From Roseisalinus antarcticus (GTDB lineage: Bacteria; Pseudomonadota; Alphaproteobacteria; Rhodobacterales; Rhodobacteraceae): DNA of 54,305 nucleotides. The translations under genes were made by a program, and so were the position numbers. Positions 5,365-50,309 of the stretch are shown in pieces. Location: positions 1 through 54,305 of the forward strand of contig NZ_FWFZ01000025.1 of NCBI RefSeq assembly GCF_900172355.1, written 5' to 3'. The first letter of the stretch is position 1, and each line of letters opens with the position of its first letter. Under the pieces are notes generated by a model. The model worked only from the letters and a program-made list of their open reading frames with translations. It had not been told where the DNA came from and did not search any database.

Positions 5365-7356
5365 TCAGACCGGATCGTTGCCCGCGATGGCGAGGGATTT
5401 GACGCGCTCCGTCTCGGCGCGAAGCTGGGCGCGGCGTTGGCTGGCCGAGACCGCCTCGGCGCGGCGTTGGGCGTGGCGGCGCAGCAGGCGCGCCGCCACG
5501 CCTCCGCGGCCCGTTCCGGCGAAGCGGCCGAGGGTGGCGCTCAGCCCCGCGGCGTGGCGGCGGAAGAGGTCGTCGTCGATCGCGACGATATCCTCGCAGC
5601 TGCCCGGCTCTCCCTGCCGGCCGGCGCGGCCGTAGAGCTGACGGTCGATCCGGCGGCTCTCGTGGAATTCGGTCAGGATGACATGCAGCCCGCCCCGCTC
5701 CGCCACGCCGGGGCCCAGCGGGATGTCCGTGCCGCGCCCGGCCATGTTCGTGGCCACCATGATCGCCCCGGCCGCCCCGGCCCCGGCGATGCGCCCGGCC
5801 TCGTCGGCCTCGTTCTGGGCGCTCAGCAATTCGTGCGGCAGACCGGCGGCCGCCAGATCCTGCGACAGGGCATCCCCCGCGCCCACCGACCTCACGCCGA
5901 CCAGCACCGGGCGGCCCGCCGCGTGCATCTGCCGGACACGGGCCAGGATGGCGGCACGTTTCTCGGCCGCGCTTGCCGTCAGCCGGGTCCCGAGGTGTTG
6001 CCGCGCCACGGGCCTGTGCGTGGGCACGGGGCTGGCGACCAGATCGTAGACGCTGCGCATCTCGCCCGCGACCTCGAGCCCGGTGCCGGTCATGCCCGAG
6101 ACCCGCAGGTATTGCCGGAAGAAACGCTGGTAGGTGATGCTGGCCACGGTCTCCTTCTGCGGCGAGGGGTCGAGCCCCTCCTTCAACTCCACCATCTGGT
6201 GCAGCCCCGCCCGCCAAGAGCGATCTGGCATCGCCCGGCCAGTGAATTCGTCGACGATCACCACGCCATCCTCCGGCGAGACGATGTAGTGGACCGACCG
6301 CTGCATCACGTGGATCGCTACGACGGCCTGTTCCAGCAGCTCTCGCCGGGCCTTGGGCACGCGCCAGACGCCGCCCGCCTGCCCCGCCGCGGCACGGCCC
6401 AGGGCCTCGCCCACCGGGCGCAGGCGGGCGCGGCGGCCGCTGTCCTCCAGCACGAAATGCTGGCCGGGCGACATCCCGCCGGCCAGGTCGAGCGCCAGGC
6501 GATAGAGGTCGGCATCGGCCCCCGCCTCGCCCTCGGCGGAAATGATCAGGGGCGTTCCCGCCTCGTCGATCAGGATCGAATCCGCCTCGTCGATGATCGC
6601 GAAATGCAGGCCCCGCAGCAGCAGCGGCGGCGCTGCGGGGTCGGAGGCCGTCCGCCAGGCGTGCCGGGCGAGGCTGCGGGCCTGGCCAAGCGCCAGCCGG
6701 TCCTTGAGATAGTCGAAGACCAGCTCCTTGTTGTCGACATAGACGATGGCCTTGCGGTATTCCGCCTGGCGCTCGGGCGGGGAGAGGCCGGCGGCGACCA
6801 GGCCGGTGTCGAGCCCGAGGCAGCCGAAAACGGGCGCGAAGGTCTCGGCGTCGCGGCCGGCGAGGTAGTCGTTCACCGTCACGACATGCACCGGCAGCCC
6901 GGCGAGCGCGGTGACGGCGGCGGCGAGGCAGGCGGTCGCGGACTTGCCCTCGCCGGTCGCCATCTCCAGCAGGCGCCCCTCCAGCAGGCGCAGCGCGCCG
7001 AGGATCTGCACGGGCCGGTGGGCAAAGCCGATCTCGGCCAGAAAGACCGCGCGGACGGTGGCCATCGCCTCGATCAGCGCCCTGCCCCGCAGCCCGTCGC
7101 GCAGCAGCCGGGGCCGCAGGGCGTCAAGCCGCGCGGCCAGCGGCTCGGGGCGGGTGTCGATCCTGTCGCTCAGCGCGAGGATCCGGGCGATCTGGCGACG
7201 GCGCGAGACCCTGCGCGGCGAGAGGGCCGCCGCGGCCCGGCCCTGCACCCGGCGCAGGGTGCGGTCGGTCCAGTTCATCGGCCGGTCGCGCCGGTGCGGA
7301 TAGGGCATCAGCCGCACCCGCACGCCCCGCCCCCAGAACCGCGCGGCCTCAGACAT
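5365..7356 (-). CDS. Shortened SecA paralogue (accessory preprotein translocase ATPase)
   Basis: A 663-aa SecA-type motor that would couple ATP hydrolysis to pushing unfolded protein through the SecYEG channel. Visible are Walker A MATGEGKS (132-139), Walker B DEAD (256-259) with ILIDEAGTPLIIS following, the TGR..AGLHQMVELKEG segment (372-394), the preprotein cross-linking end SGMTGTG (420-426), MAGRGTDI (538-545) and YGRAGRQGEPGS. Housekeeping SecA is about 850-900 aa. This copy ends about 100 residues after the GRAGRQG motif, so most of the helical scaffold/wing and the C-terminal zinc tail are missing. The usual Arg in DEARTPLIIS is Gly267. The start at 7356 overlaps the stop of the M50 gene by 8 bp; 7278 (MNWTDR) is an alternative. 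Last gene of the giant-protein operon. Confidence 0.85.
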   Translation of the reverse strand: MSEAARFWGRGVRVRLMPYPHRRDRPMNWTDRTLRRVQGRAAAALSPRRVSRRRQIARILALSDRIDTRPEPLAARLDALRPRLLRDGLRGRALIEAMATVRAVFLAEIGFAHRPVQILGALRLLEGRLLEMATGEGKSATACLAAAVTALAGLPVHVVTVNDYLAGRDAETFAPVFGCLGLDTGLVAAGLSPPERQAEYRKAIVYVDNKELVFDYLKDRLALGQARSLARHAWRTASDPAAPPLLLRGLHFAIIDEADSILIDEAGTPLIISAEGEAGADADLYRLALDLAGGMSPGQHFVLEDSGRRARLRPVGEALGRAAAGQAGGVWRVPKARRELLEQAVVAIHVMQRSVHYIVSPEDGVVIVDEFTGRAMPDRSWRAGLHQMVELKEGLDPSPQKETVASITYQRFFRQYLRVSGMTGTGLEVAGEMRSVYDLVASPVPTHRPVARQHLGTRLTASAAEKRAAILARVRQMHAAGRPVLVGVRSVGAGDALSQDLAAAGLPHELLSAQNEADEAGRIAGAGAAGAIMVATNMAGRGTDIPLGPGVAERGGLHVILTEFHESRRIDRQLYGRAGRQGEPGSCEDIVAIDDDLFRRHAAGLSATLGRFAGTGRGGVAARLLRRHAQRRAEAVSASQRRAQLRAETERVKSLAIAGNDPV

Positions 7357-9496
7357 CGAAGCCCCGCAGGAACAGCCGCCGCAGCGCGTCCGCAAGCTGA
7401 AGCCCCAACGGGCGGGTGCCGTGATCGAGCCGGACATGGACCCGCCCGCCGAACCGCGAGGGGATGCCCTCGGGCAGGTCGGTCTCGAACTGGAACACCC
7501 GGGCCAGGCTGCGCCGGCCGGTCTCGTCGCGCGGATCGACCGGGAACGGCCCGCCGAAGGCGGTGCCCAGCACCGGCGAGGGCAGCTCGAAGGCGGCCGC
7601 CGGGATCTCGCGCAGGGGGCCGGCGTTCATGCTCACCGCGGGCCGGGTCGGCAGCCGGATCTCGGCGGCCCGCAGGTGCTGGCGCACGGTGTCGATGGCG
7701 CTCTGGCCGACGACAAAGCGCAGCCGCGGCGGTGTCGTGGGCAGGACATGGCCGATCTCCTCGCCCCGCGCCACATGGGCGCCGACAAGATCGCCCGCCG
7801 GCTTCAGCGGCTCGAACCGGCCGGTGGCGCGGGCCCGGATCTCCAGGTCCGAGAGCCGGTCGAGGGCGCGGGCCAGGTCCTCTTCGGCGGCGCGCAGCTC
7901 GATCCGGGTGATGGCGGCGGTCCGGGGCGCGGCGACCGCGTCGGCGGCAAGCCGCAGGCGCAGTTCGGCGGCATGGGCCTCGGCCACCTCGGCCTGGGCG
8001 GCGGCCACGGCGCTGTCGAGCCGGGCGATCAGCTGGCCCTCGGTCACCAGCGCGCCGGGGGCGACCGCCATCTCGGCCAGAAAGCCGGTGCCGTCGCTGC
8101 GCACCGCGGCCGAGGGCGGCAGCCAGACCACCCCTTGCGTCCGCGTGGCCCAGGGCGCGGGCAGCGCGAAAAGCAGGGCCAGGACCACGGCCCCCAGCGC
8201 GGCCGTGGTCAGGACCGCCCGCCCGCGCACCCTCTGCAGGCGGGGGCCGGTGGTCAGTGTCCAGAACGCCTTGGCCACGGGCTTCAGCAAGGCGTTGAAC
8301 AGCGACCAGGCCGCGAAGACCACCCCGAGGATGAAGAAGCGCGACACCAGAAAGGCCGCGATCGTCAGCGAAATCGCGATCCGGTAGACGAAGGCCGCGG
8401 GCGCGTAGAGCGCGAAGACGGTGGCCTCATAGCCGCTTGCCGGTTTGGGCACCACGTCGGGTGCGCGATAGGCCGTGGCCTGCCAGTGATCCGCCCACCA
8501 ATCGTTGGCGCGCTTGGCCAGGTTCGGGATGCCCAGCAGGTCCGACAGGATGAAATACCCGTCGAACCGCAACAGCGGGTTGCCGTTGACCAGCACGGTC
8601 GACACCCCGCCGATCAGCATCACGTTGAACAGCGCGGCCCGCGCGAGCCCCGGCTCCATGTCGCGCCAGAACAGGAAGGCCCCGGCCGCCAGCGCCGTTT
8701 CCACCATGATCCCCGCGGCGCTGACAAAGATCCGCTGGCCGCGCCCCGGCAGGGCACCGGCGGCGGTGATGTCGACGTAGGGCACCGGCATGAACACCAG
8801 GAACATCAGCCCGAAATCATGCACATCGACGCCATAGCGCTTGGCCACCCAGCCGTGCGCCAATTCGTGCAGCAGTTTGATCGGCACATAGATCGCCGCG
8901 ATCAGCGCAAGGTTTCCGGCCGACAGCACCTGGTCCGTCACCGCCGCCCGGATCGTGTCGAACTCGCGGATCACCCCGCTGAGCGCCCAGACCACCAGCG
9001 CAAGCCACAGCGCAACCCCCAACGGCCCCACCAGCCAACGGACCAGCGGCAGCGTGCGCGACAGCAGCGGGTCGGGATCGAACAGCGGCAGCCGGAACGA
9101 CAGCGGCCCCATCAGGTTCTGCTTGAACACCTGCCGGTCCTGCTTGCCGCGCCGCTCTGCCTGCTCGGCCACGTCGGGCGGCCGGTCGGTCGCGATCAGG
9201 TCGGCGCCGTGAAGCTGGCCCACCAGCGACATGACCTCGGACTGACCCGGCGCCTCGGGCCCAAGCTCTTCGGCAAGGTCGCTCCAGGCGTCGCCCAGGG
9301 TCCGGCGGCCGTCGAAGCGGTGGATCAGCGCGTAGGCATGGGGCGTCAGGCGGTGCGACTTGCCGGTCAGCGGGTCGGTCAGGACATAGGCCGGCCGCCC
9401 GGCAAAGCGCCGCCGCGCGATCGTCACCCCCTGCCCCAGCCGGGGCCGCAGGGACGCCACGCGATACCAGTGTTCAGAGAAGAACGGCTCGCTCAT
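7349..9496 (-). CDS. PqqD-like / M50 site-2-protease-like / lipoyl-domain membrane protein
   Basis: A 715-aa fusion. Residues about 35-105 (LTDPLTGKSHRLTPHAYALI...) look like a PqqD/RRE-type winged helix that recognises peptide leaders. A multi-helix membrane region follows with HELAHGW (His210, Glu211, His214) and NPLLRFDGY (306-314), the two zinc-binding motifs of M50 intramembrane metallopeptidases. The C-terminal third, after a last membrane helix near 420-450, is a HlyD-like part with a lipoyl half-motif (SDGTGFLAEMAVAPGALVTEG), a helical hairpin rich in Ala/Glu, and a beta-barrel-like end. The start at 9496 gives an ATGA overlap with the upstream HlyD stop; a start 15 bp earlier is also possible. 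Its position suggests it acts on, or exports, the giant protein (inference). Confidence 0.85.
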   Translation of the reverse strand: MSEPFFSEHWYRVASLRPRLGQGVTIARRRFAGRPAYVLTDPLTGKSHRLTPHAYALIHRFDGRRTLGDAWSDLAEELGPEAPGQSEVMSLVGQLHGADLIATDRPPDVAEQAERRGKQDRQVFKQNLMGPLSFRLPLFDPDPLLSRTLPLVRWLVGPLGVALWLALVVWALSGVIREFDTIRAAVTDQVLSAGNLALIAAIYVPIKLLHELAHGWVAKRYGVDVHDFGLMFLVFMPVPYVDITAAGALPGRGQRIFVSAAGIMVETALAAGAFLFWRDMEPGLARAALFNVMLIGGVSTVLVNGNPLLRFDGYFILSDLLGIPNLAKRANDWWADHWQATAYRAPDVVPKPASGYEATVFALYAPAAFVYRIAISLTIAAFLVSRFFILGVVFAAWSLFNALLKPVAKAFWTLTTGPRLQRVRGRAVLTTAALGAVVLALLFALPAPWATRTQGVVWLPPSAAVRSDGTGFLAEMAVAPGALVTEGQLIARLDSAVAAAQAEVAEAHAAELRLRLAADAVAAPRTAAITRIELRAAEEDLARALDRLSDLEIRARATGRFEPLKPAGDLVGAHVARGEEIGHVLPTTPPRLRFVVGQSAIDTVRQHLRAAEIRLPTRPAVSMNAGPLREIPAAAFELPSPVLGTAFGGPFPVDPRDETGRRSLARVFQFETDLPEGIPSRFGGRVHVRLDHGTRPLGLQLADALRRLFLRGFDV

Positions 9497-11352: not shown

Positions 11353-11374
11353 GATGCGTCAGTCTAGTCCAGCC

Positions 11375-41300: not shown

Positions 41301-44300
41301 ATCGCGTCGTCGTTCTGCATCGGCAGAGCCCAGCCGATGTCGAGCCTCTGGTCCTTGCGGGCCTCCAGCGCGAGGATCGACGTCGTCGATGCCCCCGGCA
41401 GATCCAGCTGGGTCACCTGCCCCAGCGGCGCGGGGGCGGCCCCGTCGCCCGCGTCCAGCAGGCGGAAGGCGGTCAGCCCCTGGTCTTCGGTCGACAGGGT
41501 ATAACGCCCCGGCCCGAGGGTCAGCAGATTGAACGTCAACCCGTCGTCGATCCGCTCCAGCAGGTCCCCGGTCGCATCGCGCAGATCGACCCGCCCGCCA
41601 AAGACGTGGTCGGCATAGAACCGGCGGGTCTCGGTCAGGGTCATCTCCCAGCGCTGGCGGTCCCCGCCCAGCATGACGGTCGAGACCATCCCGGCGTCGT
41701 CCGGCAGGCCTGCCAGGCGCCCGACCGCCCCCGATCCGCTGCGCTCGGCGGCCAGATCGGCGGGATCCTCCATCCCGAAGGCGGCAACCAGCCCCTCGGC
41801 ATCTGCGACCGCGGCGCTCTGGTAGCTGGCGGCGATCTCGGCCGCGGTGCGGGCGTCGGACCAGATCCGCAGCTCGTCCATGTCGCCCCGGAACGGCGCA
41901 TCGGAGGTGTCGCGACTGGCGCCGAAGTAGAACGGCCGGGTGGTGGCAAGCCCAAGCCCGCCCTCGTCCAGCGCCCCCACTTCGACCCCGTTCAGATAGA
42001 TCGCCATCCGCCCCGCGGCGCGGTCGAGGACCAGCGCGAGATGGCTCCACTCCCCGGATTTGACGGCGGCATCCCCGGAATTGACAAAATAGGCCCGCCC
42101 GTAAGAGCCCGGGCCGAAATGCGCCCGGCCGAAGATCTGGCCGTCGCCGCCGACCCGCAGGTACAGGGCGTCGGCCTCCTCGCCAAGCTCGAACAGGGTG
42201 CGCGCCGTACGGTCGGGGCCGAGCAGATCCGGGCGGAACCAGCCCTCGACCGTCAGGCTGCCGGTGACGTCCAGCGTCTCGGGCGGCGCGACCTCCAACG
42301 CCAGCCCCCCGGCGACCCGCAGCCCGCCGCTGCCGATGACACCTTCGGTGGCCTGCTCGGCCAACGCCCCGGCATCGGGGTCGAGCGGCACGGGCGCGGG
42401 CTCCGTCCGCAGGGCGATCACGGCCTCCCGCGGGTCGGTGATGTCGTAGGCGAACTCGACCCCCACATAGAGAGGGCCGGTAAGCCCTTCCAGATCGAAG
42501 CTGCCGCCGAAACCGGAGACCGGCAGCTCGGCACCGTTGGCGTCGAACAGCTGGGCGGCGAACGGCTCTGCCGCATCCACCGTCAGCCGGGTGGCGCTGC
42601 CACGGTCCAGCCGCACGAACCGCGCCTGCCGCCCCTCGGGCAGGGACAGCGTCAGGCGCCCCGGTCCCGACAGCGTCGGCGCATCGGAGAAATCCACCAG
42701 CTCCAGCGCCACGTCGCGGGCCGAAGACTCCTCGTTTGTGAAGGTCAGGTAATAAGTTTCGCCGACCGCCGCATCCAGGATGGCCTCCCATCTGCTGGAG
42801 ATGCTGTAGCGGTCGAACGGCTGATCGCTGGCGATCACGCCCTCGGGGCCGCGCAGGTCGTAGCTGTGGGAGGCCGTCCGAAGGTCGCCATCCACCAGCA
42901 CCGGCGCCCCCTTGCCGACGAAGCTCCAGGTCTTGCTCTCGCCCGGCTCCAGCGTCGCGGTCAGGATCTCTCCGATGTCGACAGCCTCGGGCGGGTCCAG
43001 GCTCTCGGCCGCAAGCGACCAGGTGGCGGTGGCCGGGCGGGCGTAGCCCTCCAGCGCGATCAGGTAGGTTCCGGCCTCGAAAACGTTGAAGCCGCTGCCG
43101 TCCGTCCCGAACCTCGTGTCCACCAGGATGCCGCCGCCGGGGTCGATGACGCGGAACTGGCGGTTTTCCCCGGAATGCGAGACCACGTAGCGCGTGTTCG
43201 CCGCCGCATCGAGCCGGTAGAGCCCCGCCCGGTTGGTGTCGTCGAAGGTGGTCGTCACCGTCTCGCCGGCGGTGATCGCGGGTGCCGATGCCGCGCCGCG
43301 CAGCGACACGGTATAGTCCATCTCGAATTCGCCGCTCAGATGCAGCCGCCATGTGCCCGGCGTCAGCAGCAGCGGGACGGGATCCTCGCCCGAGAGGTTC
43401 TCGGTGACCAGAACCGTCCCGTCGGGCCCGTCCAGCGAGACCCGCAACGGCCGGAAGCTGCTGGACGTCGTGTCAATGCTGTCGAGCACCGCGAGGATGT
43501 CTTCGGTGATCTCGAATTCATGAACGTCGAGGCCGCCGCCCGGCGTGCCGAGCGTGCCACTGATGGTGTCGTCCAGCGCCGCGGCAAAGACGTTTTCGGG
43601 CGTCTTGCCAAGGGTAAAGGCGATGTCGCGCGGCGAGCTGCCGGTATAGCCGCCCTCGATCAGCAGGCTGTACTGACCCGACCGCTCCAGCGGGGCGAAG
43701 CGGATCAGGTTCAGGCTTTCGGGTGTGCCCACGACCTCGCCATCGGGATCCAGCAGCTTGACCGTGACGCCGAAGTCCGAGGCGTCGGGCGCAAAGGTCA
43801 GCCGGTCGCCGGCCTCGGCATCGAAGGTCCAGGCGGCGGTTTCCGTGGCCCGCTCCTGGTTCAGCGTGATCTCGTCGCCCAGGGTCAGCGCCCCGCCGGC
43901 GGCGATGTCCAGCAGCCGGAACCGATAGGCGCCGGTCTCGTCGCCCGGCGCGTCGACGATGATCTCGTAGGTGCCCGGGGCCAGCGTCAGCACCGGATCG
44001 TCCTGGTTGTCCGCGTCCGAGGCCGCGAAATCCCGCGTCCGGACGATCTCGCCCTCGGGGCCGGTCAGGTTCCAGCGTAGCCGGTCGGGCCCCTCCTGCG
44101 CGTCGAAGACCAGCTTGCGTTCGGCATCAAGCGTGAAGGTGTAGCGGTCGCGCTCGCCCGGCACGTCGATCTGGGCGGCGACAGGCAGCAGGTCGGCGGA
44201 CAGCAGCAGCCGGGGTTCCAGGGTCTCGAACTGGAAGGCACTGTCGACGGGGCAATGCGATCCGTCAGATCCCGCGTGGCGATCCGATGGATCGCGGGAC

Positions 44301-44341
44301 TTGTTGATCTTGGCTTCGGCCTCGTTGGCGCGTCGCTTCAA
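11375..44341 (-). CDS. Giant LEPR-XLL multidomain surface/secreted protein (~10,988 aa)
   Basis: A single uninterrupted frame of about 33 kb. Residue order, counted from the TTG at 44341: basic N-terminus; LEPRLLLSAD 41-50; pre-peptidase-C-like beta units 55-680; laminin-G-like domains about 681-861 and 1099-1284; more beta units and a lectin-like block about 1700-1925; about 17 CARDB-like repeats 2570-4778; IPT/TIG-like 4881-4968; FN3-like; propeller-like 5650-5910; nine cadherin/He_PIG-like repeats 6131-7018; RHS-like start about 7200-7450; dockerin-like about 7575-7617; a hydrophobic stretch about 8054-8103; propeller-like 8318-8770; lipase-like 8960-9230; coiled coil about 9444-9514; metzincin HEAGHALGLSD 10033-10043; cadherin-like 10266-10360; Gly/Ser/Thr linker; PKD 10604-10698; cohesin-like about 10825-10915; basic tail LRLFRR. 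TTG is preferred (AGGAAG 11 bases upstream); ATG at 44395 is the alternative and would add 18 residues including four Cys. Function is probably adhesion or matrix; this is inference. Confidence 0.93.
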   Translation of the reverse strand: MKRRANEAEAKINKSRDPSDRHAGSDGSHCPVDSAFQFETLEPRLLLSADLLPVAAQIDVPGERDRYTFTLDAERKLVFDAQEGPDRLRWNLTGPEGEIVRTRDFAASDADNQDDPVLTLAPGTYEIIVDAPGDETGAYRFRLLDIAAGGALTLGDEITLNQERATETAAWTFDAEAGDRLTFAPDASDFGVTVKLLDPDGEVVGTPESLNLIRFAPLERSGQYSLLIEGGYTGSSPRDIAFTLGKTPENVFAAALDDTISGTLGTPGGGLDVHEFEITEDILAVLDSIDTTSSSFRPLRVSLDGPDGTVLVTENLSGEDPVPLLLTPGTWRLHLSGEFEMDYTVSLRGAASAPAITAGETVTTTFDDTNRAGLYRLDAAANTRYVVSHSGENRQFRVIDPGGGILVDTRFGTDGSGFNVFEAGTYLIALEGYARPATATWSLAAESLDPPEAVDIGEILTATLEPGESKTWSFVGKGAPVLVDGDLRTASHSYDLRGPEGVIASDQPFDRYSISSRWEAILDAAVGETYYLTFTNEESSARDVALELVDFSDAPTLSGPGRLTLSLPEGRQARFVRLDRGSATRLTVDAAEPFAAQLFDANGAELPVSGFGGSFDLEGLTGPLYVGVEFAYDITDPREAVIALRTEPAPVPLDPDAGALAEQATEGVIGSGGLRVAGGLALEVAPPETLDVTGSLTVEGWFRPDLLGPDRTARTLFELGEEADALYLRVGGDGQIFGRAHFGPGSYGRAYFVNSGDAAVKSGEWSHLALVLDRAAGRMAIYLNGVEVGALDEGGLGLATTRPFYFGASRDTSDAPFRGDMDELRIWSDARTAAEIAASYQSAAVADAEGLVAAFGMEDPADLAAERSGSGAVGRLAGLPDDAGMVSTVMLGGDRQRWEMTLTETRRFYADHVFGGRVDLRDATGDLLERIDDGLTFNLLTLGPGRYTLSTEDQGLTAFRLLDAGDGAAPAPLGQVTQLDLPGASTTSILALEARKDQRLDIGWALPMQNDDAIRLAVFAPDGTLLKRSANVYSMGRMRLPADGRYIVAIEGQGSDRLGTEPVLARLRLRLDAPEADVQPLDTAPAIEAIWNTDPTGRTELDMTGSQTVTFPEAMIGDIGRTLTLSARIRTDSFGDQTIATLVADGREVLALVADGSEIVVRTLDFPTWTRTVSVRADDAIELFRPADVDAVIDRDAGTLTLYVDGQKRGSRLIDTSWFDAPGTLVLGGIADRFEPRFSGRISALRLRADAAAPDVLAAGHAGSWDPDDPALRLALTFEEGAGDALFNRTTAGGSALIAPVTDDAVTGRFRAHDDVVEYTFTRAAPGHLLLEGLSGPRAFYELYGPAGLLFSGDLDYHDIPESILPLGAGEYRLRLTPPTPEDLGAFAFRLLDAADATLIAPGDTVNVDTPSGLAGTLVTFDAEAGHRYRMLTEPDSAAEVDFFEARYLADTRRGAASWPVAWRDGRMFAYISGNQEPLFGAFTLDDRTVPAQPLTLGETVQGVLPRDGDQRDFAFTLDAATTLLPDMRAPSLRWELRDGEGRVVSGGGPLVDLGPGDYVFRVSGTRNGARDLPFVFTLYDAADIAETIGFNQEVTNRLRVSQRGVRLYALDIDGPADFDIETVDGVRFSGRSQIVSAAGNVVMDEWSLPERRVILPDAGRWYLLLQGFDFADETVANTSDRHRFIFDGGESEPTLGQSTADFETAGLGFDLGNARGEAARVIDDGTGNSLLRLTGVTDTSTTNTVFFDQTRAGLLGKAEIAFDMRAATLGGIGAQGRGFEIAWLPARELGVTGVTDFGPSAFGDDRHERTIYVALEITRASDGTTDHRIVLRRDRTEIAEIPVTADLARDAFQRLRVTLEEARGGVEITAGLTPPGESETILADAVYVASGLRLGAGRFAVRASTENSAGTANHDIDNVSITTAPGADGPIALGDLVEGVIEDLGDSGNYPVVIHDLVLDSETLIAFDALGGGSQLEWSLYGQNGRVRSAATFANSDGASYRDSDKPMLLGPGRYEIRVQADRFSGASGSYAFRLLDLGAVPDLPDETAPVDVALDPGNETRAFGFDAAAGEIVLVDVIAQTLGDVAIRLIGPHGEELRSVTNGDSQVDRDDLRDMAPVVLPWSGRYALLVEGVWSQTAPNDITFQMRRVPTLSEALTLGETVTADIDQPGRVRAYTFTLTEPEVVFVNAMAAEDLRAQWRLVGPEGTVGAREFPSSNANSVIGPAAYVLGPGDYRLTISNEDDRTGTAAFSVIAAGAAAPLAPGDSASFDLPAGQTGRILALSVTGGEDYRIEASLPDDSSVLSLLGPDGRRLTKTRMRDAADLIRFTAPADGLVYLVLEQRRFADPETVSITFAGDAIPQIPVSLGDRVDLDLAGAERRDLTFSLTGPEDVWVDVLAGSANTAWRLIGPDGEIGSGDFAGDYGGPGSPFFRLAAGDYRLRVEGAGPSALRLLAASAGAALDPGSPVTVRLDPASGAKMFRFDGTAGEAIFIDVVSGGAFGRSTLFGPSGQVVDSFGLTDSGRLILPEDGAYMLVAAGGRPDSDPAQEYRLALFDNLDPAPVEIPTTDDVAGPDLTVADLSIVGSAVAGETLALTWRSVNAGSEPASGMVQERITVRNRDTGAILASSQLTLDLTSPLAAGGGVDRSLDLALPAGADGAGPIAVQVVTDSGNALAERNPGGDAEGNNTATLEAESELPQFPNLVIADITPPDLTGWAPGQAVTIRWTTRNDGNAAASGGWTEALVISTRTGIVDRLEVAVASALAAGASAERSVQFIVPAGEAATDMFTLEVRLDTGGDVAESAPGIDAEADNIDTGEIVAAPDLALEDVAIVTAEPRAGDPLTIGWTDSNIGTLPTPDTLYHTVVVRDDTSGDVLLTRTRSFAGLDVGESAARQFVIDLPVEAVGPLRVEIELNERTDGTRGFTELTANVFSGYYNNDARIDLVAAEPRLADLSVSPPRAPGAALAGAEITVDWTVSNDGSTATSVSDWTDRVVLTQASAPGGAGDIVLGEVARSAALASGDSYEGSLTLRLPSLAAGTWSIFVIADADSALQEPGTRANNLSAAHEIAVSVPDVNLAVGAVSAAPARLFAGATTDVGWQVTNAGTERAAAGRVDRIYLSTDDTLSAGDRLLAEVTGGAALESGASQARTERVTIPGDVAGDLRLIVVTDATGAIAESDEADNTGAAALAVQGRSAPDLVVDSVSAPSGANAGSPIDITFRIRNTGDEAARGPWQDSIALVDPVTGDTREGLITVERGFDLAPGAEYEVTQRVFLPDDLSGSYAVRVTADTLDRVFEGGLEDSFADSAPIVIGQADLAVETVSIPGAGAARAGEDLLVEWTVRNDAGFAAIGARTDTVWLSRDGQFDPETDIRLADLTRPDGLDPDASESLSATVRLPLAVAGNLTIFVQANSGSTIPEEGGTRGNVAGQALRIADTDYPDLAVTAFSAPGELRGTFFRGTFDWTVDNAGAAATRADVWIDELWLVDGDGDETRIGQFTRAGALAPGESYSRSETIGFDVPDGVYRVELRTDPAGAVVQQAGAAGNDIDGQEIVLARGPSVDLAVRDVAAQGTGGLRGGDRVEVSWTVENVGTLSTALAFRTASSIRDLVKVVEADSGQVREFAIVDRPGYLGPGECYSGQAELVLPTDLDGDYRIEVETNTARIYELRRDDNTASSAAFAVTPGPGPDLRIVSFGSPDTADEGEVVTLSWVLENAGTSDLEGDYVETIHFVANADADGRLGGTTQVYELTTQGGLQIGDRLERTARIDTDAIGGFVRGGWFEVSVELPRGSAQRDGDSGNNRLTAEIDVVPAPRPDLQVSAINAPDTITAGETLSLDFIVQNLGAAGADGRWTDRVALVSDPDASLDGADFIEVENASALAVGAEYRSAAVEIAVPQRAEGTYYLVVETNLRGLDEFGATDNNRLTRAIEVAGIPFADLAVSDVSGPDQVLAGATAEVSYTVTNLGEAETRQGAFLEQIWLTRDRNRPRPSSSEGDILLRTITRDSGVLGPLAGYDTSAVVTIPETLETGRWHLTPWIDPFDTEPEETFSDNVNPDDPNTPDGNNFKAGGGRNAEVIVIGRPAPVQRSDLAVAGLEMAPAPGTDGTYQDVTMRFENRGDLTIAAGDWGWNLDISDHPAAATNAYNLDYYAGIFNSMDGENVEIAPGETVTVTKRFRIGPQVEGRFLVLDVSSASDARPDNDLAYRDVSFSQQVTDLEVTDIQLEASAIAGTRTEVTYTVTNVSGGPLWPGTDTLYDQIWLSLGPGNDTYVKLETVGTSFDAPLAPGERYSNTRQVDIPVDIGDGDYRIHVRANAPGGSTFATKLGFDRTGSIRTEGRGFQYQNLAYDVFDDGNVLGADIRIGTLAPDLVITRFEAPDTVVAGETFTAVIEVRNQGNAIAAPTWIDRLVLSADGQLSEDDHLPDPADPEGGADNGTLAEIALDPGESYEAEIEARVHYTLDGTFKLLAMADGGGLRGIDPVPGVRAGGLRLLDLQASETVGEGAGESNNLSVRDITVLPADRPDIVIESLDVPDRVVAGEEVTLTYRLRNDGTAVPADLARIYARIGFGLPGASGTISAALPQEAGSVPVMAPGETEEGEITFRIPFTATEGTYVLNFQADYWRNWPNGQVFETAAGEANNRLERAIAVDLPAPADLRPDNLTAPASARSGDPIQVTWSAVNAGSNAVRGPWTDAVYLSRDGTLDTGDILIGKVTTEADLPAGESRSLTLDTVLPGVAEGSWRVIVRSDVFNDVYEADREVDNVAVSATPLTVTVPRLSLGETVSLDLPAGEERLFRIDAPPGQTLQVLSEGADGAADLYIAYDRAASRGDFDASDAGQGGTGSRVVIPGTEPGSYYLLVRSSGAGESVTVTPRLLPLAIDDVAADRLGAGAYVTTTIRGSQFSPEAIPRLSRPGATAFEPVAWQVVDATTIVATFDLTGAPRGLYDVSVTNPSGARAVLPYRLNVERAVSGDIGVSINGPRSVSQTDTLADFVVSVRNEANIDAPYVYFQTFLPELGTQFFLSDTDPAIRMTPSSGLRGTFGDGAGFYGELDPQVQVGKRHLTAGYVFDLAPGLSGTTQVTQHVYPGRGIGSFSRPSRADLGFNSWIGVSATPLSRAEFVSHQTGIAEALRRVIIDDSDSPPALLALAADEGTWVQLYLAGLEEAGVLRPEQGVPEAREDPRVASLLAVVAGSASLGPIGSRSEGATTTRDFFERLIVYYRDAASLRDALFLPTEAAPENGALTVQQDEATPLVGGKTAFLARDFLVRFPQFNGVEDGGAGADNALLRALGPAALGGDGPAAFSLREFLRSEGLSDGSALMTGPVTSETEDRVPLGRDLPYTIGVTNDDPDRPVYEMRIVSDLSPALDPTSFALGDMRLGDIAIDVPDGRWGFQRDYDFTASRGFVLRVSAGVNVLEDPATATWLLQAIDPATGEVLTGGDSGLLQPGETAEVGYTLRLAPALFSGETVAGAARILLDGRPPLDVRSASATADVRAPNTQLTVERRSDTTYELSWSATDDLGLGHVSLFVSVDGGGFTLLQGRSPDVSGTYVFEGAAGASYEFLALATDRAGNRERPTSGIATPSDGPPVDLGAPVAVAGTTRETPVQEPDVAIPENPLFGAALGAGPTPYQTPLTPAEYDSVNAPFVAEAFATGIPGSSAGLGPLASVEAPDGTILISGGETRNAIWRLPEDGGVAGDPLVFLDTPVYDMKFDAEGRLWAATGGGPLLRLDPDSAEIIGRYGEAMGLSIAPTPDGSGVYVAGVEGLFLFDIATEAFTAVNRDLDLRLGSIAIGPDGAVWGTGWPDRREVVRLADDGRVTRLARFDVPIDSIGFGPAGSVFENLAVISTNSGPDGGGGQLYLLEPGSGETALIAADGTRGDNVTLTRDGRILVSQSGQVDLVKPVTVPEVTGFVPAADAIAVAPVAFVDVTFDQAMLQAATDAPGSVLNPDLFTLTDGDGTPVTPDFVLWDAETNTARLAVKGLEAGDWSLEVSAALLSAYRVPLAGAVTHDFEVVAELSALLEVSVVNTRLDRETGTLSYDVTVTNISGRNLRLPFLLALAGGPDESGRLPVAPDGISGDGRYLLDLGGELGGDGLLGAGESTTARTVRIDTEGNRTGDYRVGAVGGYGDNTAPVITSDPVTEAAIGTAYSYTPEATDFEGDLLFYDLQEAPEGMQIDRRTGAITWTPGATAAAQVPVVLHVFDSLGAGTLQRYTIAVETGNTAPAFVAPPTDATVREGELIELRLTANDADGDRVVLAADALPPGAAFDPGTGVFSWRPGYGDAGLYTDLRFIARDGSARTDILVPIRATEGRAPPTLEAPGVRSVREGERMVIRLDGAGAGGADLTFSALVNGLPTGATLDAETGVFAWTPGHDQADVYDVVFAVSDGATTVRRETRITVTETNGAPRLLNLDGWQAYEGDPLAVTIFAYDPDNPTYRPPMRDVPTQSDPDGELIPRVLGAERTVEVRILSGLPDGASFDPETWALTWTPGFDQAGTYEIEIEATDDGGATGTPLTVRDTLTLTVLERNTAPVPEDPGALAVASGETREITLRATDPEGGDISLALENDLGGTALPGFASFTDNGDGTGTLRLAPGDGDRGAYGLRLRAIDTGDATGGNVAEGTLSIPLTITSANEPPMIAPIFDTVAIAGQELRLPIELSDLDGEDLTLTPTGLPQGATIETGDGAPVLVWTPGTADIGPHDISLTASDGGNGDPSLAREATEAFVLTVRSQNAAPALTYPGARTGAPGQRFALTLEAVDLDGDPLHFAAEGLPAGATLDPLTGAFDWTPRRTQSGETTVTFIASDGAAEDRQSVTFTVEVPNRAPRFLPVATDHAVREGGSFDLNIRVRDDEGDLFRVDLVEGPEGAVYVPEDDRISWQTGFEDAGTHRIVLRAIDEYGAEQRLTLTLRVSDVNRAPSFAPSDILTEVGRDTTFALAATDADGDALTYSVENAPEGLSLDAATGVVTWIPAPGQSGRYSPVFVASDGETDVRRAVVLDVSARPLEPSLRLELTPAFPGLPGQPVVIRPVVVGGAVAALTVEGDPVTLDGNGVARFTPPGPGRFDVKLTVRDADGDLFEADQTIRVRDPADRDAPVLTLDPLPAGGRVTAPVTISGQIADANLDGWRITLIPRAGRGAPVVLAEGDAPASGALTTIDPARLADGFYTLRVEARDIGGRRTLREAVVTIDQPAKDGRLTRAQTDLQVTVGGVDFDLVRSYDSLSDRTGSRGTLGTGWSFRGLDIDLRSELDGVSSTRFGAFPPLREGTRVIVTLPDGSAETFAFAPEVETVDGLRLISPAWQAQGSNGWALQSAPTLLKEANGRYFDAATGEPYNPAANEGPEDYRLTAPGGRVWAIDSARGVTGITDPDGASVLVTSTGLTGADGSRLAFERDETGAVSSVRAPDGRSLHYRRDGDGRLVLVLDADGQATRFGYDDAGRLTHSVGTGGGTAFPDGPGGAPAPRPIDEDLGGLATLSGGTVSGSFGAEPLLLAAGFRPAELGSSASGRIFLRLEAEGDVAGVTWRGADPVSEVRTGAGKVFVVAVDRPGEGLLALTGTGDFTLRISVAGDLDTDGDVDADDATAMGAGRDLTGDGVADSADAALFAANYGLVPNRAPELASGAAGLKTYVDLTRGFAVDDIFLDANNDPVFARVLDATGGVAQVDSGRLVFDPTDGFSGTASVTLTLTDGYLSSGPLSLDIEVSAADLLALDFSERRILFDDVGDAVPFSITADFEGEEDVPVPFDWANGRFTTAGIAELTQTGLLRGTGQGHTALMVSRDGVSAATAVGVYSEQSMIDLLSWLGNIDAYPDAVTIVPEGGSRQIVTSLGTDQKRFVGAAADGTVYAVADTGVVTVTEDGLIEAVAPGETTVTVVHAYGEETITVRVEAPVTGAARDINAEGGILRTDDGIEVAVGPGQFSGDSRIEVARRDLASAQDGVTPLIDWFDPLGAFEFDYSGGDLNGPIQIGVDAGGQAQSGEQVAFFRKISLPTGPGNALEDYWAIFDTGTVDADGMARTASPPFPGFSDRGVVLAARASVPMKQVTFTAADQMLATATMVTLMTAPLFGAVGALAAVGTIGTLNAHILAPKILGAAKRDHYFKVGELYYNKDGSLAYNKDGPANGDPPTPLDFELDASLDRETISVQPAPGITPDTRSNGVVPPVDAAAQAVPVIDSASIDVDRIGATRLTLTGFMFADETDGLAAADIRDSRLRIKYGDTEFFIYGEEYKDVSVTAGSAGYRFTNSLTVDVPDSVLLGKAAIFVERPGFNADENLPRPWPDDTPYITSNAFHVRNTGGYGFIPEDVAGVGPEVITVVDTRTGAEGGDDQTVYQLALPDEDVGLVYDVIPTDDLAMAFVQTVRGVYVMDTTTLRWYDTDPQSAKIDPLRIPGGGLSTMTLDPNGRYLYLAARDKIWTVDLRPGTPHHLVPQVMATLDVSAGATEQFAFLEGQLRNRQIESIAVNADGTRLFALVPDRYTDLDGQRTREGRVLAFNVDPEAPRPGETVADGEEPAPGTAWGDRIRIKAGPQLFSGQGGARLRDGGIVVGRGPLKLQPTPVADRMILNVRHDYRNGLKQLIILDADPRNFQVDFQNIQASPEGAALDQPGAGLALLENSAYSIRRQNGFVFGSPKFDLDIQRAQKLLLLPDMSYGFVIDQSKRFIDFRAQATVENATQVGAKIGVIRDPLGVLGGQPTYLGATTPIPGATIWDAELNADSDRLYAQYNRTGNTLIFDVRELIYRAQNGGAENRTLPLDDATRFQSRDPVNLDPLDVHPDSNYIGLQPISSLTLDPVPEPVKNYGDNEDGLTLSWTFDAPGEVGNGQGPGGLAPYSKVYISTAFDGLGLFPDNAPSHPLVDDTFDLQFFEDDYNPGRIFTSDLGLARGYAHEITADGSLRTYVEQLDDIKRTELRIDPAFLEVLTAGQTFFWGVQVGEDGQRGTQTFKTAPRPSDATYGPVTFISHGFQTFPTSLDSAIGNPSFQTPDQAEELAAMVARSSGDGIVLHYDKASGKFVDRETGATNLAAIGAGKPLVLLADWAKEADITDTGFAEAAADAMFAALMNLNEGTGGALDDAPFHFIGYNRGAVVNSEMIQRLATHLPGKTDIQMTTIDPFDQSQESLKIPLKSIVTTGKDINDLISVITAAGTILSGASGNAAGAAGGAALLFKQRALSKALEKIITISDALGVKISTIDWNDFKDPDVKRWDNVRFADNYYQTAATAKTGLAGRLFTLSANGRSLADTANVDVDLSKYATGFGQDDFAFLKGVSLPIDVPFLSSQSLTFDTGVGGPSERALAWYAGTIYTTADTFNGYTLWRSHRQVGQPVEVLGTVFEDAETYDQGGWYVARPQWLGDAAKITAGRKAADDSTISSPPGVIREGVGEGWFYSWSGGGDIYRPKTPNSVRTYPASHDNTEVTKIPGVAVPTVFNGNFEHGTRQSLANMLLSKLKIEDFLAKQTEKIKLAKARKELAAANKDTDAFLEASRDLASAETEYTKTSEVLKRSASAFGRFPYSYELPGWSFHGGGGFDFGLELEGYDFTTDLAGLFVMETNPADIVKEVLGKVFDYFGGKLVDAAIKKLMISQLTSELEQDLSDTSSAAYKSFLLELSDENTATSKRASQITALIKQLDTFLSDTLIQDQIIKNITLPDYVDPTKTITLDKLLEVDSSGTVNPVGIQAAQSYVQKGLTAMFERTFKDVLTSDYALLMGGQEVLKLLVGAARGPDNPALDLLGLSDPINTLLDKVIDRVAQFDRIAHNRFWLPETGANYLTFETTSPLGLTEDAGVDVYFVSPEVDEASVTGPDSAGVLHHARVTLPTGVFASKVHAVEIPQGIKGQMVKIILSNDKLDDDSWDFAISPDGSAPDLADARAFIARSAEEVSPETQTISQVYLLDEIKLAAQKPDAGSPAQAMPAAAPAAPGSLSDSDARRLLAAAVAAWSGAGVEGRGRIETLAALEVEVADLAGSLVALYDNGRITLDRDAAGHGWFVDETPAQDVEFAGARIDGARVALNGAALGRMDALSVLMHEAGHALGLSDLAAGEDGPAIMRGTLRPGERLAPDAAAVAAIPGPAGALAAARHALRVAPQGVDVSNGDFSGGLTGWATAGDVAAEGGGAVLREVGDGTISSLAQAFTLPAGATRLTLTLSDIVLQGDPARAPDAFEIALTDPATGSALRRLDDLGGTDALVSIQRDGTVYFGPGVTVSGVAASGGTLADMSGPVTISLSLAALGGGAAVQIGFDLLSFGSRGSRVTVDDIALDLTNGAPVARDDTARTDEGNAVILDVLANDSDPDGDPLVIEITRQPAQGAAVLNADGTITFTPAQDMSGTASFDYRVGDGIAFSPSATATIEVTPDQTGGGGTGGTGGGSGGSTGGGSIGGGTGGSTGGGTGGSTGGGSTGGGSTGGGSTGGGSTGGNTGGGGTTTGGTQTGDAGGGTDSSLQGGAGSDSAVGGTGGDTLSPSDGTDVPVGGESPRTDDGAAAPGGGQPGPDEPVTTPTTPAEAPQDLGQGGTAGPGTAADPGRTAGRGGAAGSGAAMRAGAGSAPAGTGAGPASGGTTAARGGAIASGLPSDPFALNAPSNLAIGAASGESLPGAPVCSPELERRLGDAVISLRALTAPDDPLRLRLSDAEPGALDELLGWRIDWGDGTRDEGTEAALPEKVFDAPGLYRIRVTLRMADGTYTTVLVVQVGDTDPVFVRSLSADRRVLEVVFSRAVDPLRVELDAGRFADAALIGPDGAPVPGTFSFADDARRLRFVPDAAPLALGSYRLTLRSGQAAFADIFGCALDGDRDRVAGGDYRTSFEIQVEEARAAAPREVPVMARNLGGLRSAEVEIRLPTGLTAEVLPGAALPPGATLAASPSPDGLTLKIDSPYPLPDGPGEIARLGLRLGADAMPAGDSRIVATARPGPVAAGPGTAPVAASVTAPVSAAEAPSLVLDTIAPTLLALGGGAAGKGSWRKDFIADRKPRGGGGTPGLRLFRR
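12944..12997 (-). other. Two degenerate RTX-like nonapeptides
   Basis: Encodes GGAGSDSAV followed directly by GGTGGDTLS, fitting the GGxGxDxUx calcium-binding consensus of type-I-secreted proteins. Only two copies are seen, within a low-complexity linker, so chance cannot be excluded. Confidence 0.4.
13068..13220 (-). repeat. 15-bp coding tandem repeat (Gly-Gly-Ser/Thr linker)
   Basis: Imperfect copies of GGTGCTGCCGCCWCC on the plus strand encode GGGSTGGGST-like linker on the minus strand, between the cadherin-like unit and the Ala/Pro-rich segment of the giant protein. Such arrays are prone to length change. Confidence 0.8.
14213..14245 (-). other. Matrixin-like zinc site HEAGHALGLSD in the giant protein
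   Basis: LMHEAGHALGLSD matches the metzincin HExxHxxGxxH/D pattern with Asp as third ligand. About 10 residues later AIMRGTLRPGERL supplies a possible Met-turn. Residues 10033-10043 of the chain. Confidence 0.7.
17069..17083 (-). other. Degenerate lipase-type nucleophile elbow GYNRG
   Basis: The giant protein has VTFISHGFQ (about 120 residues upstream) and FHFIGYNRGAVVNSEM, the layout of an alpha/beta-hydrolase oxyanion strand and nucleophile elbow. The expected Ser is Asn (AAT codon, residue 9089), so the domain is probably catalytically dead. Confidence 0.5.
21491..21619 (-). other. Dockerin-type calcium-binding pair
   Basis: Encodes DTDGDVDADDATAMG and DLTGDGVADSADAALFAANYG, two EF-hand-like loops spaced as in type-I dockerin domains, followed by an N-x-APEL Ig-like unit. 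Confidence 0.7.
22000..22740 (-). other. RHS/DUF6531-like segment
   Basis: Contains DFDLVRSYDSLS, GTLGTGWSF, a GRVWAIDSARGVTGITDPDG segment and YD-like units (LHYRRDGDGRLVLVLDADGQ, FGYDDAGRLTHSVG). This is the start of an RHS-type shell, but only two or three YD units are present and no core RHS motif follows, so it is a short or relict version. Confidence 0.6.
23300..25950 (-). other. Nine cadherin / He_PIG-like Ig repeats
   Basis: Each unit of about 90-110 residues starts N-x-AP and contains D-x-DGD, a GLPxGAxxDxxTGxFxWTPG segment and a closing SDG...V motif. The DGD and DxD groups are likely calcium ligands that would stiffen the rod outside the cell. Confidence 0.75.
30010..36630 (-). 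other. About 17 tandem CARDB-like repeats
   Basis: Repeats of 120-150 residues begin with patterns such as PDLTVADLSI, ADLAVETVSI or PDLQVSAINAP. They continue with a W/F-T-V-x-N-x-G core, a WTDRVxLS turn, a LxxGxSY segment and end in DxxNNxxxxxIxV. This is the CARDB cell-adhesion-related beta-sandwich pattern. Copies are divergent at the protein level, so the array is ancient rather than recently expanded. Confidence 0.75.
44192..44221 (-). other. LEPR-XLL sorting motif in the giant protein
   Basis: Encodes LEPRLLLSAD preceded by FET, 41 residues from the TTG start. This is the N-terminal signature of very long secreted bacterial proteins (LEPR-XLL domain). It precedes a short Leu/Ala-rich stretch (LLPVAA) but no normal signal peptide, so it may itself be the export signal. 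Confidence 0.85.
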
Positions 44342-44457
44342 ACCGTCGTCGCACTTCCTGCACTGTATACTACACCGCCCCGGGGCGGGGCACATCCGGT
44401 CCGCTTCGGGGGGCAAGTGGTTGTGATTTAGATGATTGTGTGTCGAAACTGGCCCCC
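44342..44457. promoter_or_regulatory. Divergent promoter region between giant gene and HlyD gene
   Basis: The short gap holds a 14-bp perfect palindrome (CCGCCCCGGGGCGG, 44375-44388), a GTATAC core (44365-44370) and a TGTGATTTAGAT stretch (44422-44433) that could act as an extended -10 for the plus-strand gene. AGGAAG at 44352-44357 (minus strand) is the likely ribosome site of the giant gene. No clear -35 elements are seen. Confidence 0.35.
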
Positions 44458-45315
44458 ATGCAACCCCGGTGCCACCACAAAAACATCTTGACGCCGCGCA
44501 TGGCCCTTGCCGCGCTGGCAACACTGGGGACGCTCCTCGCGCCGCTCAGATCCGAAACGCAGGTGATCGAGCAGGGCTGCGTGATTCGCCCCTCCGAGGT
44601 GGTGGCGCTCAGCGCGTCGGTCGCCGGGCGCCTGTCGCACTTCAACGTGGGCCGGGGCGATGAGGTCGTCCGCGGCGATATCCTGGCCGAGCTGGAGGCC
44701 GGCCCCGAGCGGGCCGATCTGCGCATCGCCGAGGCGCGGGCCGCCGACCGCAGCCAGCTGGAGATCACGGCCCAGCGGCGCGACCTCTTCGACGAGCAGG
44801 TGGAGCGGAACCGGTCGCTCAGCGAGGCGGAGCTCTTGACCCGCAACCGCTTCGACACCCTGCTGGCCGATCAACTGGAGGCGCAGGCGGCATCCGAGCA
44901 GGCCCGCGTCCAGTTCGAGCTGGCCCAGCTGGAGGTCGCGCGCGCCCGCAGCATCGTCGAGGAACATGTCGTGCGCGCCCCCATCGACGGCGTGGTTGTG
45001 GAGCGGACCAAGGCGGCGGGCGAATTCACCGGCGAGCGAGAGCCGGTGCTGACGGTCGCGGCCCTCGATCCGCTGCATGTGGAGGTCTTCGCCCCGATCG
45101 CCATCAGCCGGACGGTCGCGGTCGGGGACCGCGCCCGGGTCACCCCCGAGCCGCCCTACGACACCCCGCGCGAGGCGGTGGTCGATGTGGTCGATTCGGT
45201 CTTCGACGCCTCGAGCGCGACCTTCGGCGTCCGCCTGACACTTCGGAACCCGGACCGGGACTTGCCCGCGGGCCTGCGCTGCGCGATAGATTTCTCGGAC
45301 CCCGCGCCGGACTGA
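44458..45315 (+). CDS. Small HlyD-type periplasmic adaptor
   Basis: A 285-aa membrane-fusion-type protein. The N-terminal hydrophobic segment MALAALATLGTLLAPL is a signal anchor or signal peptide. It is followed by a lipoyl half (VVALSASVAGRLSHFNVGRGDEVVRG), a helical hairpin rich in Glu/Arg/Ala (about residues 85-155), the second lipoyl half VRAPIDGVVVERTKAAGEF and a short beta-barrel (DPLHVEVFAPIAISR). It ends soon after, so it lacks the membrane-proximal domain of RND adaptors. The start is uncertain: ATG 44458 is used, GTG 44440 and ATG 44500 are possible, and none has a good Shine-Dalgarno. It is transcribed away from the giant gene and probably belongs to the same export route. Confidence 0.8.
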   Translation: MQPRCHHKNILTPRMALAALATLGTLLAPLRSETQVIEQGCVIRPSEVVALSASVAGRLSHFNVGRGDEVVRGDILAELEAGPERADLRIAEARAADRSQLEITAQRRDLFDEQVERNRSLSEAELLTRNRFDTLLADQLEAQAASEQARVQFELAQLEVARARSIVEEHVVRAPIDGVVVERTKAAGEFTGEREPVLTVAALDPLHVEVFAPIAISRTVAVGDRARVTPEPPYDTPREAVVDVVDSVFDASSATFGVRLTLRNPDRDLPAGLRCAIDFSDPAPD

Positions 45316-48534: not shown

Positions 48535-48559
48535 CGGGACAGCCAGTCGCCTCCTCGCA

Positions 48560-48580
48560 ATGTGGAACGCTGTTTCATAT
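48560..48580. promoter_or_regulatory. IclR/KdgR-like operator 1
   Basis: GGAAC-GCT-GTTTC core in an imperfect 21-bp palindrome, 26 bp before the amidohydrolase ATG. It shares the ATGTGGAACG half-site with operator 2. The GAAAC-NNN-GTTTC shape is that of IclR-family (KdgR-type) operators; its location suggests repression of the minus-strand operon. Confidence 0.6.
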
Positions 48581-48651
48581 TTTTCTAGCACCCTGCCTTC
48601 AGATCCGTCAATCGGTCAAGAAGCCGGGCCTTTACTGTTCTGAATCGACGC

Positions 48652-48679
48652 TTGACGAAACTCGATCGAGCTTTCTAAG
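48652..48679 (+). promoter_or_regulatory. Candidate promoter of the ABC-importer operon
   Basis: TTGACG (48652-48657), a 16-bp spacer and TCTAAG (48674-48679) make a moderate sigma-70-type promoter. The predicted start falls at about 48686, inside operator 2. Confidence 0.4.
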
Positions 48680-48683
48680 CTGA

Positions 48684-48704
48684 ATGTGGAACGGCGTTTT
48701 ACAT
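48684..48704. promoter_or_regulatory. IclR/KdgR-like operator 2
   Basis: ATGTGGAAC-GGC-GTTTTACAT, a 21-bp near-palindrome, lies directly downstream of the candidate promoter and 72 bp before the binding-protein start. The half-site matches operator 1 exactly over ATGTGGAACG. The overlap with the expected transcription start suggests repression. Confidence 0.65.
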
Positions 48705-48776
48705 CGCTCGTGACGCTCACGGGTCTCCTGCGCGGGGTGCGCCGGGTCCGGAGCTCCAACAGAGGAGAGACCAAGG

Positions 48777-50258: not shown

Positions 50259-50309
50259 TGACCCGCTCCCGATGACCCGCTGCGACGACCCGAAGGATCA
50301 CGGCCCATC

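Follow-up and report, generated by a model that had tools for sequence, protein, structure and literature searches.

In the 5.0-Mb draft genome of Roseisalinus antarcticus we identified a gene for a giant LEPR-XLL protein that is accompanied by genes for two HlyD-type adaptors, a PqqD/M50/HlyD fusion protein and a truncated SecA. The window analysed here is one entire contig (C106, 54,305 bp) carrying one such set, and a gene system linking LEPR-XLL giants to these neighbours is found in this genome and across Pseudomonadota. As a whole, the set is best read as a module dedicated to exporting very long proteins with an N-terminal LEPR-XLL leader, which we consider on balance probable.

The giant, GAF-HlyD, fusion and SecA genes form one minus-strand unit, in that order, and the second adaptor gene (HlyD2) is divergent. 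A gap of 22 bp separates the giant gene from GAF-HlyD, which overlaps the fusion gene by 4 bp if the latter starts at ATG 9496; the fusion gene in turn overlaps the SecA gene by 8 bp if translation of SecA begins at ATG 7356. An earlier, sequence-only reading of the window (the initial annotation) had described this coupled unit with its divergent HlyD, had named the giant a LEPR-XLL protein and had called the SecA shortened. These observations are confirmed, including the spacings.

Proteins encoded in the window

The giant gene (11375..44395, minus strand) encodes 11,006 amino acids from ATG 44395. Its open frame spans 11375-44524 (11,049 amino acids counted from GTG 44524), and the ATG is the likelier start; initiation at the GTG would overlap HlyD2. 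Pfam domains include laminin-G, CARDB, PPC, He_PIG, cadherin-like, RHS and Big. The N-terminal leader motif, FETLEPRLLLSADLLP (44168..44236, minus strand), scores 42.6 bits against NF012209 (E 3.2e-10; cut-off 17 bits), making the giant a clear member of the LEPR-XLL family, the model of which spans only a 24-position N-terminal motif. Upstream of the motif lies a polar or basic stretch without a Sec-type hydrophobic core. Such a core is absent from all seven leaders tested, where the best 15-residue Kyte-Doolittle means before the motif are -0.54 to 0.93, compared with 1.89 and 2.03 for two HlyD2 N-termini. At the opposite end, inspection by eye revealed no motif common to the listed giants, and the endings fall into several unrelated types (e.g., ...LIAAE, ...LLSRLxSLFG and W..DF). 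The polar stretch before the leader and the lack of a visible common C-terminal signal fit leader-first export. A metzincin-like HEAGHALG motif (14222..14245, minus strand) lies about 950 residues from the C-terminus, and HExGHxLG occurs in 15 of the 61 C-terminal segments taken from giants but never in 20 shuffled versions of that set. Rfam gave no match.

The fusion protein (7349..9496, minus strand; a start at TTG 9511 is also possible) combines a PqqD-like domain, a multi-pass M50 domain of the site-2-protease type and an HlyD/lipoyl region. Counted from TTG 9511, the zinc motif HELAH occupies residues 215-219 (8855..8869, minus strand) and the second M50 motif, NPLLRFDG, residues 311-318 (8558..8581, minus strand). 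H215, E216, H219, N311, P312 and D317 are unvarying in 21/21 sequences of one alignment and in 38/38 of another (37 of 80 M50 loci plus the window; this alignment and those of SecA-like and GAF-HlyD below were chosen for clean starts and spread). HExxH and NPxxxxD in a protein with multiple membrane passes, as judged from the alignments and the helices of the model, are the features of a site-2-type M50 protease. Not every M50 protein compared is intact, however: that of G101, from a locus without SecA, is missing the second zinc motif, and in the fragments G049 and G112 one or both motifs are absent.

At E 0.01, Pfam matched M50 in 36, HlyD_3 in 31 and PqqD in 27 of 38 members. A profile of the protein matches the PqqD structure 3g2b (E 2e-4, residues 19-103) and AcrA/MexA-type adaptors, and all 50 matches listed in a fold search with the model are adaptor-type proteins. 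In pathways for peptide natural products, PqqD-like domains bind leaders. The best NCBIfam match is NF041824, the daptide leader protease (137.7 bits, cut-off 300). The protein thus resembles M50 proteases that process leaders of ribosomally synthesized and post-translationally modified peptides (daptide HExxH NF041824; YydH/LiaK NF058609), together with PqqD-type recognition domains, in pairing a PqqD-like domain with an M50 metalloprotease. Unlike them, it is fused to an HlyD region and its putative substrate is a giant protein instead of a small peptide. Weak relatives of its membrane part, annotated as HlyD adaptors, are found on Escherichia and Citrobacter plasmids.

The SecA-like ATPase (5365..7356, minus strand) has 663 amino acids from ATG 7356, within an open frame at 5365-7437. 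In an alignment of 38 of 78 SecA-like loci plus the window, SecA_DEAD, SecA_PP_bind and P-loop_SecA are retained in 39/39 proteins, which accordingly have the DEAD motor, the P-loop and the preprotein cross-linking domain. The Walker A core TGEGK (residues 134-138 from that ATG; 6943..6957, minus strand), D256/E257 and R541/G542/D544 do not vary. In contrast, the wing/scaffold domain SecA_SW was detected in 0/39 at E 0.001, and the SEC-C tail of housekeeping SecA is also absent from the SecA-like protein; as a control, the 903-amino-acid SecA of the same genome carries both (SecA_SW at E 2.9e-65). The wing/scaffold region of SecA contains the two-helix finger used at SecY. The C-terminal end falls at about the same place in 20 of 21 SecA-like proteins from this genome and the family-level set (the frame of G009 ends earlier).

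The SecA-like structure, the prediction of which the initial annotation had proposed, was modelled (predicted local distance difference test, pLDDT, 88.5) and ends in one long helix (618-657). It fits SecA best, with a query-normalised template-modelling (TM) score of 0.81 to SecA engaged with SecY (6itc). The protein scores 469 of the 800 bits required by the SecA equivalog model TIGR00963, and 399 of 930, 420 of 1085 and 372 of 725 bits for the SecA2 models TIGR03714, TIGR04397 and TIGR04221. Membership in SecA2 was therefore rejected, and the SecA2-type reading of the initial annotation is not supported: the scores fall below the SecA2 cut-offs and are no better than those to SecA models. 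The genome has one SecY gene and thus no second SecY of the kind found in SecA2/SecY2 systems. In the three plasmids viewed, RefSeq names the motor 'translocase', 'DEAD/DEAH box helicase' or 'prepilin peptidase', so its SecA-like nature is hidden by annotation.

GAF-HlyD (9493..11352, minus strand) has an N-terminal GAF region, a putative single membrane helix and a periplasmic HlyD/MFP region. HlyD families are matched in Pfam and the GAF match of the window copy is weak (E 0.0025); GAF is matched in 25/25 members (24 of 77 GAF-HlyD loci plus the window) at E <=0.01, at best 1.2e-15. HlyD2 (44440..45315, plus strand), divergent from the 5' end of the giant gene, is a short adaptor with a hydrophobic N-terminal segment. 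With the fusion protein, the module has three HlyD-bearing proteins, and in this it has the adaptors of type I secretion.

Pfam revealed no outer-membrane channel in the 19 window frames besides the giant, and an HlyB-type ABC ATPase/permease was found neither in these frames nor among the genes conserved around the module, nor in the annotated loci viewed on plasmids. We therefore rejected the idea that the module itself is a type I system of the ABC kind. The sole ABC ATPase match, at 52074-54095 (ABC_tran and oligo_HPY), is part of a peptide-uptake type set (SBP_bac_5, two BPD_transp_1 permeases and the ATPase) that, with an amidohydrolase, occupies 47704-54095 beside the unit. A class III aminotransferase gene at 46363-47688 also occurs near L064, L068 and L198, probably by chance.

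Pairing with giants and conserved gene order

The R. antarcticus genome encodes four LEPR-XLL proteins, four M50 fusion proteins and four non-canonical SecA proteins (plus one full SecA) on the same four contigs. Each set has its own GAF-HlyD, HlyD2 and giant, so that pairing is 4/4. The other giants have 12,874 amino acids (C70), 9,336 amino acids (C110) and about 11,400 codons (C39); the last gene (36275-70693) converges on its module and is broken into three overlapping frames by frameshifts or assembly errors. The other M50 copies are 39-44% identical to that of the window. In a phylogenetic tree of M50 proteins, the window and C70 copies fall in one six-row group and the C39 and C110 copies elsewhere, and thus the four are not recent duplicates. 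The M50 proteins of two other genomes of the same family are identical to those of Puniceibacterium sediminis and Rhabdonatronobacter sediminivivens.

Across genomes the association is strong. Among 149 genomes at the family level, LEPR-XLL proteins occur in 16/16 with a full-length strong M50 match versus 3/133 others, and among 398 Pseudomonadota genomes in 32/37 versus 9/361, where the thresholds for a strong match (E <1e-70 and >=585 bits, respectively) were set after the score gap had been seen. The phylum-level scan scored the best two M50 candidates per genome, and G310 (499 bits) and G182 (466 bits) were assigned to the weak side. One of the five phylum-level exceptions, G330, has a near-miss leader, LEPRLLFSATLD; the contigs bearing the other four loci are 6.8 to 28.2 kb long. 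A weaker M50 is present in eight of the nine genomes that have LEPR-XLL but no strong M50.

We examined gene order in the best 80 of at least 567 confirmed encoded relatives of the M50 protein (named loci below). These come from genomes of alpha-, beta-, gamma- and delta-type proteobacteria and from single Nitrospira and Rokubacteria bins. They contain M50 (80), SecA-like (78), GAF-HlyD (77), HlyD2-type (53), DUF3467 (29) and SapC (15) matches. L119, L102, L140 and L153 miss one gene at a contig end, which accounts for all three loci without GAF-HlyD, and L158 has no SecA within the 19.8 kb examined. Where the trio is complete (75/80), the order is adaptor-M50-SecA on one strand in 75/75, and the first possible starts overlap or sit within 60 bp in 66. 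Across 69 loci, the pairwise divergences of these proteins are correlated with r 0.87-0.90, whereas shuffled data reach 0.21 at most.

By a strict rule, a frame of at least 1,000 amino acids adjoins 42 of the 55 named loci with enough flank, and 13 had none. In four named loci (L100, L139, L143 and L151), a large neighbouring frame starts within the examined DNA and has a visible leader. The RefSeq locus of Pontibrevibacter nitratireducens encodes a LEPR-XLL protein, DUF3467, an adaptor, a PqqD protein, a 'DEAD/DEAH box helicase' and an adaptor. Pseudosulfitobacter DSM 107133 encodes a giant (leader FEPRVLLSAD), DUF3467, an adaptor, a PqqD protein, a 'translocase' and a divergent adaptor. The DUF3467 protein (about 110 amino acids) lies near the giant and GAF-HlyD genes in the R. 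antarcticus C110 module (L045:965-1438) and in the 29 named loci. SapC-family proteins occur inside or beside modules (e.g., L057:12694-13542); absent from R. antarcticus and present in 15/80 named loci, SapC did not prove to be a general module part.

Outer-membrane proteins and relatives without SecA

A TolC relative adjoins 4/80 named loci, in Sphingobium indicum (opposite strand), Dyella, Rhodanobacter and Pinirhizobacter, and is also found in the Methylosinus C49 operon (SecA-type) and the Thalassospira marina operon (SecA-less); such counts come from few query proteins and are lower bounds. R. antarcticus itself has two unlinked outer-membrane-factor (TolC-family) genes. Omp85-type barrels, possibly another outer-membrane route, are encoded at four loci of the family set, of which one lacks SecA (L065:4736-5926, L066:4066-5229, L073:307-1410 and L067:14525-15808). 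About 90 kb from the C70 module (C70:33500-38000, L187), a repeat-rich gene is followed by an outer-membrane efflux protein gene.

A related class (including L188-L196 and L068-L076) has a giant, HlyD2, GAF-HlyD and a weaker-scoring M50, and no SecA-like gene was found in the 18 weaker-M50 loci examined. It shares with the SecA-bearing module the M50/adaptor core and related leaders of the LExR-x-x-FDA type (LEPRMMFDGAA, LEERILFDAAA, LEPRIMLDAA and LERRIAFDAAA). A TolC-like gene is present in 9 of the 18 loci (3/9 in the family set, 6/9 in a second set), and no energy source was noticed in this class.

In a 66-row M50 tree (every third named locus, fragments G112 and G049 dropped), SecA adjacency needs one change (97/92) if L158 is labelled SecA-type despite having no SecA match. 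The SecA-bearing rows form one side of a tree branch, and three of 18 SecA-less rows (G101, G091 and G086) fall on the SecA side of the midpoint root; the SecA-less class may therefore not be one clade.

A candidate export machine and its alternatives

Combining these features, we propose that the PqqD-like domain of the fusion protein would bind the leader in the cytoplasm and that the fused site-2-type protease probably cuts or releases it at the inner membrane. Housekeeping SecA works SecY through its wing/scaffold region; the SecA-derived ATPase, with a motor core and preprotein clamp and no such region, may instead dock on the M50 protein and GAF-HlyD and thread the chain starting from its N-terminus. 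A periplasmic conduit could be built from the HlyD parts of the fusion protein, of GAF-HlyD and of HlyD2 and would connect to an outer-membrane channel of the TolC family, the gene for which is unlinked here but adjoins the module in some relatives; the giant would end on or outside the cell. Binding, cutting, docking, the direction of export and the final location are predicted from sequence. Linkage, fixed order, correlated divergence, a truncated motor, conserved active sites and TolC beside some relatives are observed.

In the initial annotation the set was a leader-reading, proteolytic and export machine for one protein. The co-occurrence counts and the conserved trio order sustain the neighbourhood on which that proposal depended, and conservation with giants, the PqqD-like domain and intact protease and ATPase motifs are consistent with a dedicated set of this kind; the restriction to a single protein falls with the four giant/module pairs. 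The initial annotation had also set the system apart from standard type I or Lap secretion for want of an outer-membrane channel and a type I ABC ATPase. Neither was found in the window, but the missing channel is a trait of this locus: with TolC beside relatives and unlinked TolC-family genes here, the system is more like a tripartite exporter than had been held. Overall, the earlier interpretation is partly supported.

A bolder version would make the module a separate secretion class. A SecA motor freed from SecY would drive chains of about 10,000 residues through an M50-protease/HlyD/TolC conduit in a single step, with the leader in front. The fusion would read and cut the leader and form part of the channel, and gain of SecA would have allowed substrates above about 5,000 residues. 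We regard this version as tentative and rather doubtful. A suggestive association links the SecA-bearing M50 class with longer giants: LEPR-XLL frames above 5,000 amino acids make up 26/45 in strong-M50 genomes (maximum 19,427) versus 0/12 in others (maximum 4,504; Mann-Whitney p 0.005, per-genome p 0.014), in a comparison made by genome and not by locus, classed by M50 score and not by SecA, with fragmented drafts that cut frames and p values that count related genomes as independent. LEPR-XLL frames of 17,824 and 19,427 codons are found at G071 C4:103221 and G209 C115:112865.

Several observations, the limits of this length comparison among them, weigh against a SecA-driven export module. 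With four query proteins, no TolC was found in the examined DNA at the window locus or at 76/80 named loci, and HlyD2 was detected in just 53/80. The window copy of the fusion protein falls just below the Pfam cut-offs (26.6 versus 27.2 bits for M50, 21.7 versus 23.4 for PqqD). Thalassospira marina has a strong M50 and a 4,033-amino-acid LEPR-XLL protein, and G330 a strong M50 and a 2,843-amino-acid giant, both without SecA. SecA-less loci, those of the weaker-M50 class included, serve LEPR-type leaders, and thus the core function can do without SecA. Finally, a SecA-like protein without the SecA scaffold leaves unexplained how the chain is pushed.

The giant could also take a two-step route, crossing the inner membrane through SecYEG while the SecA-like protein assists housekeeping SecA as a SecA2-like accessory that targets or pulls the chain, the M50 protease trims the leader and the HlyD proteins help only in the periplasm or at the outer membrane. 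In favour of this, the SecA-like protein is genuinely related to SecA and has the preprotein cross-linking domain; SecA2 proteins elsewhere can use the single SecY, and this genome has only one. Accessory Sec systems also place an extra SecA-family ATPase beside special, often very large substrates. They differ from the module, in which the SecA lacks SecA_SW (39/39), shows no preference for SecA2 models and is accompanied by tripartite-type adaptors, with only one SecY in the genome. The seven leaders tested have no Sec-type hydrophobic core before the motif. We judge this route unlikely.

A conduit of M50 protein, GAF-HlyD, HlyD2 and TolC might instead export on some other energy, with the SecA-like protein keeping long chains unfolded or ordered in the cytoplasm, which would explain its absence from systems with shorter substrates. 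Some relatives indeed have TolC and shorter LEPR proteins but no SecA, and every frame above 5,000 amino acids that was seen comes from a genome with the SecA-bearing class of M50. However, no other energy source was noticed among the conserved neighbours (in a domain scan that was not exhaustive), and the tight SecA-M50 divergence correlation with overlapping or near starts (66/75 loci) points to a physical complex. We consider a conduit not driven by the SecA-like protein quite improbable.

It is very improbable that an unlinked ABC transporter exports the giant by ordinary type I secretion while the neighbouring genes process or modify it. Type I systems, including the Lap and RTX adhesin exporters, share with the module HlyD-type adaptors, TolC in some relatives and a very large substrate of the surface type that has no Sec signal. 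A Vibrio VB16 giant has RTX/serralysin-type C-terminal domains (PMC10868602), and the repeat-rich gene with its efflux protein on C70 would also suit such a route. A loose RTX-like nonapeptide pattern occurs four times in the window giant and at least three times in 41/61 giant segments, possibly through the composition of Gly-rich proteins, while Pfam matched no RTX family in the window giant. The giants share an N-terminal motif and no C-terminal one seen by eye, and GAF-HlyD accompanies 77/80 named loci, the other three being cut at contig ends. The module also differs in its SecA-family motor and M50 protein, with no ABC ATPase seen; in a review (PMC8277102), the inner-membrane transporters of tripartite and type I systems are given as ABC, RND and MFS.

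A chance neighbourhood of a giant gene and unrelated transport genes, for which nothing speaks beyond the single window, is rejected by the 4/4 pairing within the genome and the cross-genome counts and can practically be dismissed.

We return to the dedicated export module as the preferred reading. No description of it was found in open-licence PubMed Central papers, a search that left bioRxiv and most subscription journals outside, so an earlier description is possible. As defining features of type I secretion (an ABC ATPase) and of accessory Sec systems (a passing SecA2 model score and a second SecY) are lacking and no describing paper was found, we rate the module as new as a system, with a putative function and with parts that each belong to a known family. 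Giant proteins of Omnitrophota reportedly contain divergent SecA helicase domains (a 2023 preprint by West-Roberts et al.); there the SecA-like domain is said to sit inside the giant, whereas here it is encoded by a separate gene alongside adaptors.

How single chains of at least 10,000 residues are exported is an open question, and the module provides a concrete, widespread and testable candidate machine. If the reading is correct, a SecA motor would work without its wing/scaffold region, and a fusion of leader-binder, protease and adaptor would serve as the inner-membrane part of an exporter.

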